DNA of 64,000 bases, taken from contig CAIIXF020000002.1 in NCBI GenBank assembly GCA_903813345.2, positions 32,048,926 to 32,112,925 on the forward strand, given 5' to 3'. A program made the translations under genes and the position numbers. Under the pieces are notes generated by a model. It saw only the letters and a list, made by a program, of their open reading frames with translations. It ran no database searches and had not been told where the DNA came from. Origin of the DNA: Owenia fusiformis. Its lineage: Eukaryota > Annelida > Polychaeta > Sabellida > Oweniidae. Within the stretch, counting starts at the first letter, position 1, and every line of letters begins with the position of its first letter. Positions 4,201-28,300 of the stretch are shown piece by piece.

Positions 4201-4371
4201 TTATACAGTAGAGCTGGTGTCATCCTGGTGCACAGGAGGCTGGAAGCATCTCACATGTTCCACTGGGAGATTGTCCGCATCACTTGACTTAAGATACTTG
4301 TTCAGTACAGCAAATATTTGATTGTTCAAGATTTGAAACTTTCGTATACGATCCACCATTCTTTTTAGAGG
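4201..4371 (-). CDS. CYFIP: CYFIP exon 28 (C-terminus, residues 1210-1265 and stop)
   Basis: 171 nt including TAA. Encodes [38 protein letters not shown] and [16 protein letters not shown]. Acceptor gattccag. The 3' UTR extends to lower coordinates; its end was not determined. Confidence 0.96.
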
Positions 4372-7300
4372 CTGGAATCATAAAAAATTGCGTAAGTTTA
4401 TGGTGTTAAAAGTCTTAGTTGCAACAACTGAAGAATCCCTTGGAGTACAGGGTGGCCAAATAATACAACTCTTTTTCCCTTTGGCATACTTTTGTTGCTC
4501 TAAAAACATGATGATGTTTGTTTAATGAGCCAGAAAGAATGCTACATTCGTAAGGTTCTACATTTGTACTAATAATTTACAAAGAATTTATTTACATAAT
4601 ATAATGCAATTCAATTTAAATATTTCATTAATAATTATCAATTAGTGCAATGGCTAATCCAAAATAGAATAAATGTGCCTAATATTATTGCTGCCTGGAC
4701 TAGGTGCATTAAAAACAAGTAACTGTTCTCTAATTGGTTGAATATTGTGGATGCTATGGTAACTTCTGACAACAAACTTGTATGAATGTAAAAAAAGTTT
4801 TATTTACTATTCCTCTACAGGTGTCATCAGCCTGGTCAACCCTGTTAACACGTAGGATGTGATATGAGAAGTCCAAGGCCTCAAACCTCCTCTGCTGGCC
4901 TAGTAGGACTATCAATACACACCCTGCCCAGTTTAGACCTTCTCCAAACAATTGTCTGAAACACAACAGATACCATATATAACAACATGTTAACACGTAG
5001 AATGTGATACGAGAAGTCCAGGGCCTCAAACCTCCTCTGCTGGCCTAGTAGGACTATCAATACACACCCTGCCCAGTTTAGACCTTCTCCAAACAGTTGT
5101 CTGAAACACAACAGATACCATATATAACAACATGTTAACACGTAGAATGTGATACGAGAAGTCCAGGGCCTCAAACCTCCTCTGCTGGCCTAGTAAGACT
5201 ATCAACACACACCCTGCCCAGTTTAGACCTTCTCCAAACAGTTGTCTGAAACACAACAGATACCATATATAACAACATGTTAACACGTAGAATGTGATAT
5301 GAGAAGTCCAGGGCCTCAAACCTCCTCTGCTGCCCTAGTAGGACTATCAATACACACCCTGCCCAGTTTAGACCTTCTCCAAACAGTTGTCTGAAACACA
5401 ACAGATACCATATATAACATGTTAACACGTAGAATGTGATACGAGAAGTCCAGGGCTTCAAACCTTCTCTGATGGCCTAGTAGGACTATCAATACACACC
5501 CTGCCCAGTTTAGACCTTCTCCAAACAGTTGTCTGAAACACAACAGATACCATATATAACAACATGTTAACACGTAGAATGTGATACGAGAAGTCCAGGG
5601 CCTCAAACCTCCTCTGCTGGCCTAGTAAGACTATCAACACACACCCTGCCCAGTTTAGACCTTCTCCAAACAGTTGTCTGAAACACAACAGATACCATAT
5701 ATAACAACATGTTAACACGTAGAATGTGATATGAGAAGTCCAGGGCCTCAAACCTCCTCTGCTGCCCTAGTAGGACTATCAATACACACCCTGCCCAGTT
5801 TAGACCTTCTCCAAACAATTGTCTGAAACACAACAGATACCATATATAACATGTTAACACGTAGAATGTGATACGAGAAGTCCAGGGCTTCAAACCTTCT
5901 CTGCTGGCCTAGTAGGACTATCAATACACACCCTGCCCAGTTTAGACCTTCTCCAAACAATTGTCTGAAACACAACAGATACCATATAACAACATGTTAA
6001 CATGTAGAATGTGATATGAGAAGTCCAGGGCCTCAAACCTTCTCTGCTGGCCTAGTAGGACTATCAACACACACCCTGCCCAGTTTAGACCTTCTCCAAA
6101 CAGTTGTCTGAAACACAACAGATACCATATATAACAACATGTTAACACGTAGAATGTGATATGAGAAGTCCAGGGCCTCAAACCTCCTCTGCTGGCCTAG
6201 TAAGACTATCAACACACACCCTGCCCAGTTTAGACCTTCTCCAAACAGTTGTCTGAAACACAACAGATACCATATATAACAACATGTTAACATGTAGAAT
6301 GTGATCGTGAAGTCCAAGGCCTCAAACCTCCTCTGCTGGCCTAGTAGGACTATCAATACACACCCTGCCCAGTTTAGACCTTCTCCAAACAATTGTCTGA
6401 AACACAACAGATACCATATATAACAACATGTTAACACGTAGAATGTGATACGAGAAGTCCAGGGCCTCAAACCTCCTCTGCTGGCCTAGTAGGACTATCA
6501 ATACACACCCTGCCCAGTTTAGACCTTCTCCAAACAGTTGTCTGAAACACAACAGATAGCATATATAACAACATGTTAACACGTAGAATGTGATATGAGA
6601 AGTCCAGGGCCTCAAACCTCCTCTGCTGGCCTAGTAGGACTATCAATACACACCCTGCCCAGTTTAGACCTTCTCCAAACAATTGTCTGGAACACAACAG
6701 ATACTATATATAACAACATGTTAACACGTAGAATGTGATACGAGAAGTCTAGGGCCTCAAACCTCCTCTGCTGGCCTAGTAGGACTATCAATACACACCC
6801 TGCCCAGTTTAGACCTTCTCCAAACAGTTGTCTGAAACACAACAGATACCATATATAACAACATGTTAACACGTAGAATGTGATATGAGAAGTCCAGGGC
6901 CTCAAACCTCCTCTGCTGGCCTAGTAAGACTATCAATACACACCCTGCCCAGTTTAGACCTTCTCCAAACAGTTGTCTGAAACACAACAGATAGCATATA
7001 TAACAACATGTTAACACGTAGAATGTGATATGAGAAGTCAAGAGCCTCAAACCTCCTCTGCTGGCCTAGTAGGACTATCAATACACACCCTGCCCAGTTT
7101 AGACCTTCTCCAAACAGTTGTCTGAAACACAACAGATAGCATATATAACAACATGTTAACACGTAGAATGTGATATGAGAAGTCCAGGGCCTCAAACCTC
7201 CTCTGCTGGCCTAGTAAGACTATCAATACACACCCTGCCCAGTTTAGACCTTCTCCAAACAATTGTCTGAAACACAACAGATACCATATATAACAAAATC

Positions 7301-25300: not shown

Positions 25301-28300
25301 ACACTCTGCCCTGAACCTCTTATCTAACATCATACTGGAATATAACAGTAAATAGTCAGTACACATGCAGAGATATGTCTTTGCTTCAGCAATGTCTTGT
25401 ATCTATTAGCTGTAGGCCAGGGGATAGTTGTGCCAGTTGCCTTACACTCTGCTCTGAACCTCTTATCTAACATCATACTGGAATATAACAGTAAATACTC
25501 AGTACACATGCAGAGATATGTCTTTGCTTCAGCAATGTCTTGTATCTATTAGCTGTAGGCCAAGGGATAGTTGTGCCAGTTGCCTTACACTCTGCCCTGA
25601 ACCTCTTATCTAACATCATACTGGAATATAACAGTAAATACTTAGTACACATGCAGAGATATGTCTTTGCTTCAGTAATGTCTTGTATCTATTAGCTGTA
25701 GGCCAAGGGATAGTTGTGCCAGTGGCCTTACACTCTGCTCTGAACCTCTTATCTAACATCATACTGGAATATAACAGTAAATAGTCAGTACAAATGCAGA
25801 GATATGTCTTTGCTTCAGCAATGTCTTGTATCTATTAGCTGTAGGCCAAGGGATAGTTGTGCCAGTGACCTTACACTCTGCCCTGAACCTCTTATCTAAC
25901 ATCATACTGGAATATAACAGTAAATACTTAGTACACATGCAGAGATATGTCTTTGCTTCAGTAATGTCTTGTATCTATTAGCTGTAGGCCAAGGGATAGT
26001 TGTGCCAGTGGCCTTACACTCTGCTCTGAACCTCTTATCTAACATCATACTGGAATATAACAGTTAATAGTCAGAACACATGCAGAGATATGTCTTTGCT
26101 TCAACAATGTCTTGTATCTATTAGCTGTAGGCCAAGGGATAGTTGTGCCAGTGGCCTTACACTCTGCCCTGAACCTCTTATCTAACATCATACTGGAATA
26201 TAACAGTAAATACTTAGTACACATGCAGAGATATGTCTTTGCTTCAGTAATGTCTTGTATCTATTAGCTGTAGGCCAAGGGATAGTTGTGCCAGTGGCCT
26301 TACACTCTGCTCTGAACCTCTTATCTAACATCATACTGGAATATAACAGTTAATAGTCAGAACACATGCAGAGATATGTCTTTGCTTCAACAATGTCTTG
26401 TATCTATTAGCTGTAGGCCAAGGGATAGTTGTGCCAGTGGCCTTACACTCTGCTCTGAACCTCTTATCTAACATCATACTGGAATATAACAGTAAATACT
26501 CAGTACACATGCAGAGATATGTCTTTGCTTCAGTAATGTCTTGTATCTATTAGCTGTAGGCCAAGGGATAGTTGTGCCAGTGGCCTTACACTCTGCTCTG
26601 AACCTCTTATCTATAATCATACTGGAATATTGTAAATACTCAGTACACATGCAGAGATATGTCTTTGCTTCAACAATGTCTTGTATCTATTAGCTGTAGG
26701 CCAAGGGATAGTTGTGCCAGTTGCCTTACACTCTGCTCTGAACCTCTTATCTAACATCATACTGGAATATAACAGTAAATACTCAGTACACATGCAGAGA
26801 AATGTCTTTGCTTCAGCAATGTCTTGTACCGATTAGCTGTAGGCCAAGGGATAGTTGTGCCAGTGGCCTTACACTCTGCCCTGAACCTCTTATCTAACAT
26901 CATACTGGAATATTGTAAATACTCAGTACACATGCAGAGATATGTCTTTGATTCAACAATGTCTTGTATCTATTAGCTGTAGGCCAAGGGATAGTTGTAC
27001 CAGTGGCTTTACACTCTGCCCTGAACCTCTTATCTAACATCATACTGGAATATAACAGTAAATACTCAGTACACATGCAGAGATATGTCTTTGATTCAAC
27101 AATGTCTTGTATCTATTAGCTGTAGGCCAAGGGATAGTTGTGCCAGTGGCCTTACACTCTGCCCTGAACCTCTTATCTAACATCATACTGGAATATAACA
27201 GTAAATACTCAGTACACATGCAGAGATATTTTGAGTTAAATGGTAACAGTTCGCTCGATTAAAACAGACAAGTAATGCAAAGTAGTTTGAACATTGAGAA
27301 ATGGTTCCCATTGACATTTAGCCAAAACCATTTCAACAAATCGTAATTTGATGATGCAATGGATTCATATCAATCTATGTTTTAGATTTTCCTTTTTGGC
27401 AAATCTAGTATAGATGGTATTGGTTGATCTGAAACATAGAATCAAGAATCAAATCCTATACTTAGGGCTGATGTGAAAAAGTCACTCCATCTGGTGAGAA
27501 TTGAACCCAGAAATCCCTGATTAATTCCAAGTTATTATTTCCTTTTTGATTTAAATTTTGCTCCAATTTGCCTTTAAAAACGTTTTAAAATACCAACCTG
27601 TTCTTACATATACATGTACTACCTGTTTCAATAGTTTCATAATGTACTATGCTCTGACATTAAGGCTAAACAGATATACATACCTTCCTGCCAGATGTTT
27701 GTAATAGGCGTAGATCTGGTCACTTAATTTGTACACAAACTGGTCAAAACAAAGATTCACCTAAAATATGAAAAGAGGAAAATAATTTGAAAACAAAAAA
27801 TCTTTGGTTTGTTTCAGATTATTTGTTATCAAATAGTTGAGATGAAAATATACATGTATCATCTTGAATAACTTCAACATTGCCATATCATGTTTCCCAG
27901 ACCATTTCTTAAAACAGATAGAACACGGCATTGAAATGCAAAATGTCCGACCTGTCTCATTTAACATGTTCAGTTTTAGGACTCTTAAAAGTGTTCCACT
28001 CAAGGTCATGTTCTCCTTACAGGAATGTTCCTCAATACATTGAACTGTATATAGATAGTTACCTCAGCTTCCACTTCATCATATAAGAACTGTTTCTTGA
28101 ATTTTGTGAGAGCGTAGTAAGCACTGTCATTATACAGATCTAGAGGGTATAGGATGTATTCCATCATGCTTGGCTCCTTTGTTTCCAAGACATGGTCTGT
28201 CAGAATCCAAGGCATGGACATCTCTATAGGGAACTATAAAATATAGAAAAATTGTTAATAGAAAAGAGAAAAATTAACATTATAGAATTTGCACTTCTCT

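Follow-up and report, generated by a model that had tools for sequence, protein, structure and literature searches.

Mirage-type minisatellites at exon edges of CYFIP and other conserved genes in the annelid Owenia fusiformis

The window analyzed here is a stretch of 64,000 nucleotides from the annelid Owenia fusiformis (GenBank assembly GCA_903813345.2, contig CAIIXF020000002.1, positions 32,048,926 to 32,112,925 of the forward strand). Its minus strand carries a CYFIP gene with tandem arrays whose units span single exon-intron borders, a type of repeat called a “mirage” minisatellite in amphioxus. The gene is matched exon by exon by the family model PF05994 (FragX_IP): all 48 matches listed in a genome profile search lie at this locus, many of them being copies of the 145-bp and 143-bp units described below. 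The exon at 8678-8923 also matches residues 1070-1150 of the human CYFIP1 chain 3p8c_A (E = 5e-38). A previous sequence-only reading of the window had reported three large border arrays, and Tandem Repeats Finder (TRF) recovers all of them (arrays 1 to 3 below), with copy numbers that are those of one assembly and depend on it. Exon and intron borders of CYFIP were placed by eye from the sequence and the reading frame, whereas the sizes of the exon and intron parts of each unit were computed.

4808-4955, minus strand: CYFIP exon, source of array 1 at its acceptor end (PF05994 and sequence; borders by eye from the frame)
4843-7296, minus strand: array 1, 145 bp x 17.0 (TRF, 96% match), acceptor side, functional copy at the low-coordinate end
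7565-8737, minus strand: array 2, 78 bp x 15.0 (TRF, 98% match), donor side, functional copy at the high-coordinate end
8678-8923, minus strand: CYFIP exon match, source of array 2 at its donor end (PF05994 and CYFIP1 match; exon end at 8679 by the frame)
13861-14086, minus strand: small border repeat, 111 bp x 2 (TRF, self-BLAST with 91% identity, sequence)
14046-14186, minus strand: CYFIP exon match with a single duplication of its donor end (PF05994 and sequence)
14957-15028, minus strand: weak border repeat, 33 bp x 2.2 (TRF, 80% match), probable acceptor of the exon at about 14866-14960
24222-24356, minus strand: CYFIP exon match, source of array 3 at its acceptor end (PF05994 and sequence)
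24231-27229, minus strand: array 3, 143 bp x 21.0 (TRF, 95% match), acceptor side, functional copy at the low-coordinate end

The unit of array 1 joins 32 bp of intron end, up to the acceptor (...TTTCAG), to 113 bp of exon head; that of array 3 likewise joins 40 bp of intron end (...TTCCAG) to 103 bp of exon head, and that of array 2 consists of 59 bp of exon tail and 19 bp of intron start with the donor GTAAGT. Sequence and reading frame agree with the previous description in all three cases: the functional copy belongs to one adjoining intact exon, and the spare copies extend into the intron. Arrays 1 and 2 occupy opposite ends of a single intron (4956-8678), about 93% of which is array. Two smaller versions had been proposed for the same gene. 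One is clear, its 111-bp unit being made of 35 bp of exon tail and 76 bp of intron with the donor; the other, with its 33-bp unit, is weak only. A search of the genome (498 Mb, 525 contigs) with the 145-bp unit returned 17 matches, all inside array 1, although such a search cannot prove absence elsewhere.

Two further observations concern the same gene. Two diverged versions of one CYFIP exon lie about 2.7 kb apart on the minus strand (14866-14960 and 17546-17640) and may be mutually exclusive exons. A CYFIP intron contains a 586-codon open frame (21303-23060, minus strand) that by eye resembles the reverse transcriptase of a retrotransposon lacking long terminal repeats.

The window also holds a TRIM-type gene, where the expected array at a stop codon was found:

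37794-39857, plus strand: TRIM-type open reading frame (ORF) with RING, B-box and NHL matches above cut-off (Pfam PF00097, PF00643, PF01436)
39822-40310, plus strand: stop-codon array, 98 bp x 5, inside which the TRIM ORF ends (TRF, ORF, sequence)

Its 98-bp unit comprises the final codons of the coding sequence, the stop codon and 3′ sequence, without any splice site.

To see whether border arrays extend beyond this locus, as had been suggested, TRF (period 25 to 500) was run on conserved genes elsewhere in the genome (25 regions, 259.4 kb in all). CYFIP itself was excluded from the excess test, being the discovery case. Set A consisted of 10 regions (160.0 kb) with exons found by PF00063, PF09735, PF00995, PF01602 and PF01496, and set B of 15 regions (99.4 kb) with exons found by PF00118 together with further PF00063 regions; with four arbitrary 10-kb stretches, 299.4 thousand letters were covered. 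The families were fixed before any repeats had been seen, and the regions were picked with the exon-match listings in view. Compact genes were favoured, and the survey leaves out one large Sec1 gene (about 24.85-24.89 Mb on contig C6) as well as the anoctamin genes. Because the tandem array of NCKAP1 was already visible in the exon-match listing at selection, counts are also given without this gene. Both the row-merging rule and the null model were drawn up after the repeats of set A had come into view. In the null model, each unit was dropped randomly in the collapsed region, and placements entirely within an exon were set aside.

In the two sets together, 18 of 51 tandem arrays overlap an annotated exon, compared to 7.31 expected (2.46-fold, P = 5.1e-5), and each set shows the excess alone: 9 of 30 arrays in set A (3.89 expected, P = 6.8e-3) and 9 of 21 in set B (3.42 expected, P = 2.2e-3). 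Leaving out NCKAP1 gives 16 of 43 (6.39 expected, P = 8.7e-5), or 7 of 22 for set A (2.97 expected, P = 0.013). For units of at least 50 bp the count is 13 of 33 (6.42 expected, P = 4.3e-3), and for those with at least three copies as well 10 of 20 (3.80 expected, P = 8.4e-4). Seven arrays with dispersed units were removed post hoc, which leaves 18 border arrays among 44 (5.75 expected, 3.1-fold, P = 6.8e-7); among these, arrays with at least 90% match account for 13 of 25 (3.49 expected, P = 1.0e-6). Placement in uncollapsed regions yields a 3.8-fold excess (95% bootstrap interval over genes 2.8-5.0), and the fold stays at 3.6 or above when any one region is left out. At least one border array is present in 12 of the 25 regions, and 18 border arrays against 166 exon matches correspond to roughly one in nine sampled exons. 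Border arrays are spread through many genes of this genome, and they are more frequent than random placement predicts, so the earlier suggestion of a pattern reaching beyond CYFIP is borne out.

On inspection, each of the 18 border arrays shows an AG or GT border; by eye 13 are donors and five acceptors, CYFIP having two donors and three acceptors, one of them weak. We do not claim a donor bias among the 18 (two-sided sign test, about 0.1). Examples of donor arrays are AP12 (151 bp x 22.9), AP6 (82 bp x 33.9), NCKAP1 (106 bp x 9.9) and T11b (53 bp x 20.2). T11b-118 (79% match) is counted among the 18 and was not dissected; two further arrays, Myo7 (125 bp x 9) and M7b (41 bp x 4), are donor arrays by eye and stand outside the 18, the family models having missed their exons. 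None of the 18 units matches another surveyed region, whereas seven non-border arrays do. Neither the 145-bp and 143-bp units nor the 18 sampled border units were found at many unlinked loci, as a dispersed repeat or mobile element would be. Copies in border arrays are more uniform than those in other arrays (median identity 95 vs 87.5%, P = 0.02), and copy number does not differ between the two (P = 0.33). The four arbitrary stretches, in which exons are not annotated, contain six arrays.

Protein-family scans were rejected as a means of detecting or counting such arrays. Profile listings show tight tandem repetition for CYFIP and NCKAP1 and none for myosin (among the 65 of 210 candidates scored), Sec1, adaptin, V-ATPase, TCP1 and anoctamin. 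Since TRF found border arrays in surveyed myosin, Sec1, adaptin, V-ATPase and TCP1 genes despite clean listings, such scans miss arrays and did not enter the counts.

Some side observations were made among the surveyed and listed regions. At L026 (C11:137831-138134 and 139071-140142) one 53-bp exon-edge unit forms two arrays about 0.9 kb apart, possibly a single array divided by an insertion. L005 (C9:5622601-5623969), L028 (C7:17008920-17010034) and L037 contain tandem units common to unlinked loci; they form a distinct, dispersed class of minisatellite that mobile elements may carry. On the minus strand of C9 (G000:C9:37986009-37994334), twelve matches to one part of the myosin head (about 18-84 of the profile) lie within 8.3 kb and resemble an extensive series of alternative exons in a myosin gene. 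Finally, three matches above cut-off to the Eryth_link_C domain (PF16915), a linker domain of annelids, occur on both strands within 15 kb (G000:C6:27033687-27048438).

To characterize the spare copies, 23 arrays were dissected around donors or acceptors picked by eye (16 donor and seven acceptor units). No regularity is apparent in the lengths of the units or in where the border splits them. The intron part is at least 26 bp long in all seven acceptor units and at least 11 bp in all 16 donor units, as predicted if the exon-adjacent site has to work, with numbers too small to serve as proof. In 18 of 21 arrays (all but NCKAP1-87, T11b-96 and T10-30), splicing at a spare site would shift the reading frame or introduce an in-frame stop; Myo7-125 and M7b-41, for which the listed match gives no frame, are left out of this count. 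The GT or AG is intact in 174 of 179 aligned spare copies. Nevertheless, in nine arrays the splice-site columns show no significant deficit of variation relative to the other columns (8 segregating vs 11.8 expected, P = 0.18; this test and the distance test below leave out T10-48, with its 77% match, and arrays with fewer than five spares). The spare sites look intact but not demonstrably under selection, the arrays being simply uniform. Because of the frame consequences and the normal splicing reported for amphioxus, we expect them to be ignored in splicing.

The exon parts of the spares nevertheless show an unexpected skew. In the true frame, 41 of 81 variants from 12 arrays are synonymous, compared to 23.2 under a null that preserves each base change; shifted-frame controls give 16 and 13 of 81, fewer than the 22.4 and 19.7 of their respective nulls. 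The skew is strong among variants that two or more spares have in common (23 of 34, null 10.9, P = 3e-5). Between the functional copy and the spare consensus, 19 of 24 differences are synonymous (null 7.2), in contrast to 7 of 24 and 1 of 25 in the wrong frames. M7b-41, M4-34, T10-30, T10-48, indels and codons cut by a unit edge were excluded from these tests, and arrays with one spare enter only the comparison of functional copy and spares. CYFIP drives the skew (23 of 34 of all its variants, null 10.2, and 15 of 17 shared ones). The simplest reading is that older spare variation arose in, or in exchange with, the functional exon, while fresh changes in spares are nearly free. That the exon acts as a master copy re-seeding the array is a lead only, the skew being mostly that of CYFIP.

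Based on these results, we consider it rather probable that the arrays are mirage-type minisatellites in which short tandem duplications are tolerated at exon edges and arise more often when the unit includes exon DNA. According to this proposal, a segment of about 30-170 bp straddling one edge of a coding exon would be tandemly duplicated, and the array would then expand and contract as any minisatellite does. The gene would very probably still work, the border adjoining the complete exon remaining in use, and spare borders would very probably be ignored, their use mostly leading to a frameshift or stop, so that the array would be close to neutral. Duplications would be born more often with exon DNA in the segment, and the excess would presumably reflect biased mutation in this genome, for instance in break repair. 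The exon copy might later exchange with or re-seed the array, mainly on the evidence of CYFIP, and older spare variation would in this way bear the protein-level filter of the exon. As to the birth step, breaks produced by paired nicks are known to give tandem duplications through end joining in mouse embryonic stem cells (PMC5730883; papers are cited here for the accessible parts of their texts), and by analogy the same reaction may give rise to the arrays described here.

The sequence-only reading had assumed a selective filter through which only outward growth survives. This is mostly a matter of geometry: a duplication over one border would always give a complete exon, its border and then intronic spares, and because spares are always left on the intron side, little filtering is needed. 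The task of selection would be a modest one, namely to retain duplications whose exon-adjacent copy has a working site. A preference of amplification for exon borders, as that reading suggested, agrees with the excess, though only in part. The 26 arrays off annotated exons, a few of which by eye are border arrays at exons without annotation, show no clustering close to exons (2 lie within 100 bp vs 3.45 expected, with low power). Because of this result and of the TRIM array, which lacks a splice site, we take as a hint that the exon DNA within the unit matters and not the splice site itself.

A number of results weigh against parts of this proposal. Two possible causes found no support: the arrays off annotated exons lie at a mean GC percentile of 0.52 (median 0.63) of the intron background, which gives no sign of a preference for GC content, and exons show no CpG depletion of the kind expected from exon-specific methylation (observed/expected 0.36 vs 0.39 in introns). 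The excess is not significant in set B alone for arrays of period at least 50 with at least three copies (3 of 7, P = 0.12), nor among worn arrays with less than 90% match (5 of 19, 2.26 expected, P = 0.057). Singleton spare variants, which should be free in strictly neutral spares, are also slightly skewed (18 of 47 synonymous, null 12.3, P = 0.037). In genes other than CYFIP, the synonymous skew does not reach significance (18 of 47 variants, P = 0.069; shared variants 8 of 17, P = 0.12). Finally, identity to the functional copy drops with distance in only two of nine arrays, so that steady seeding from the exon end was not seen.

Several alternatives have to be considered. Misassembly of long reads could have produced the arrays or raised their copy numbers; copy number in such arrays is hard to assemble, and one amphioxus mirage was aberrant in a draft assembly (PMC3087553). 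We find this scarcely credible, given that copies carry individual variants (119 of 120 pairs of spares differ in the 145-bp array) and that the pattern recurs in nearly half of the surveyed regions: counts may be off, existence hardly. It is also highly improbable that spare splice sites are maintained by selection as decoys or backups. The near-complete retention of GT and AG would agree with such a role, but the splice-site columns are no less variable than expected by a significant margin, the stop-codon array has no splice site to maintain, and splicing at a spare would in most cases disrupt the reading frame.

In the absence of any bias, random tandem duplications would simply be tolerated as well across a border as within an intron. 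Geometry and tolerance do account for every feature of a single array, including the haphazard lengths and split points, but not for an excess found in both sets and in the pool without NCKAP1, and we regard this explanation as quite improbable. Differential survival is somewhat harder to dismiss: arrays with one protein-constrained copy might stay recognizable or be re-seeded for longer without being born more often. Both the higher copy identity of border arrays and the synonymous skew of older spare variants are in line with it. Slow decay alone, however, predicts a larger excess among worn arrays, and the opposite was observed, the excess being larger among uniform ones; on balance, we think differential survival rather unlikely. 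In a stronger form of the birth bias proposed above, which we regard as possible and put forward tentatively, a germline process would duplicate coding-exon DNA in tandem several-fold more often than intron DNA, its traces surviving only at harmless exon or ORF edges; the functional exon would be the re-seeding master copy, and the arrays would archive past synonymous states.

If about one in nine exons carries a mirage, with an excess over chance that can be measured, this genome would offer a large natural collection in which to study what DNA readily undergoes short tandem duplication in the germline. The arrays would also provide a system for how splicing handles dozens of competing sites next to the real one, and a gauge of how often new introns or exons begin from border duplications. 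Gene annotation would have to mask them.

The sequence-only reading knew of no described class with this pattern, but the structure is that of the amphioxus mirages, the primary Adh description of which reportedly appeared in Nucleic Acids Research in 2002. Mutually exclusive tandem exons, in which exon sequence is likewise repeated within a gene, have copies with both borders; the units of the three large CYFIP arrays contain one border each, their copies being 95-98% alike, and do not form such a cluster. In amphioxus, tandem repeats over one exon-intron boundary were described in the globin genes BflGb6 and BflGb9 (PMC3087553), and further ones in Adh, TnC and PGBD5 (PMC3902484). Their units measure 150-160 bp, 157 bp, 10-72 bp, and 60 and 108 bp (PMC3087553, PMC3902484), and the BflGb6 mirage has 6 and 3 copies in its two haplotypes. 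RT-PCR (reverse transcription PCR) data for Adh and globin suggested normal splicing despite the mirages, and mirages were considered possibly general in cephalochordates (PMC3087553); instability has been reported as well. As far as the accessible texts go, they have until now been a lancelet curiosity known from a handful of genes.

Other systems share single features with the arrays described here. Intron gain by tandem duplication in Drosophila (PMC2891723) and potato (PMC4974935) likewise duplicates splice signals within a gene, but creates a new intron; here an existing border is repeated, with no new intron evident. In human genes from segmental duplications, internal tandem repeats located at exon-intron boundaries (PMC2812944) likewise alter intron structure, but they change the transcript or form novel introns, whereas here the exon is probably unchanged. 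The metallothionein gene of an earthworm, also an annelid, has minisatellites in intron 1 and duplications of exon 4, with exon copies absent from the transcript (PMC12783039); the accessible part of that report does not describe border-spanning units. Among the listed titles and beginnings of abstracts, in a literature collection with few subscription papers, we found no report of border minisatellites genome-wide or in an annelid.

Like the amphioxus mirages, the Owenia arrays have units of similar size that span one boundary, 5′ or 3′, with intronic spares, an authentic copy at a complete exon, and splice signals kept in many copies, on donor and acceptor sides alike. Normal splicing and instability are amphioxus reports, whereas the present arrays are known from the sequence of one assembly. 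They differ in occurring in another lineage, in reaching about 34 copies compared to the 6 and 3 of the BflGb6 haplotypes, in their abundance among sampled exons, in the measured excess and in the synonymous skew among spares. The class is already named, though little known; lineage, abundance, copy number, the stop-codon form and the measured excess set the cases described here apart from the published ones.

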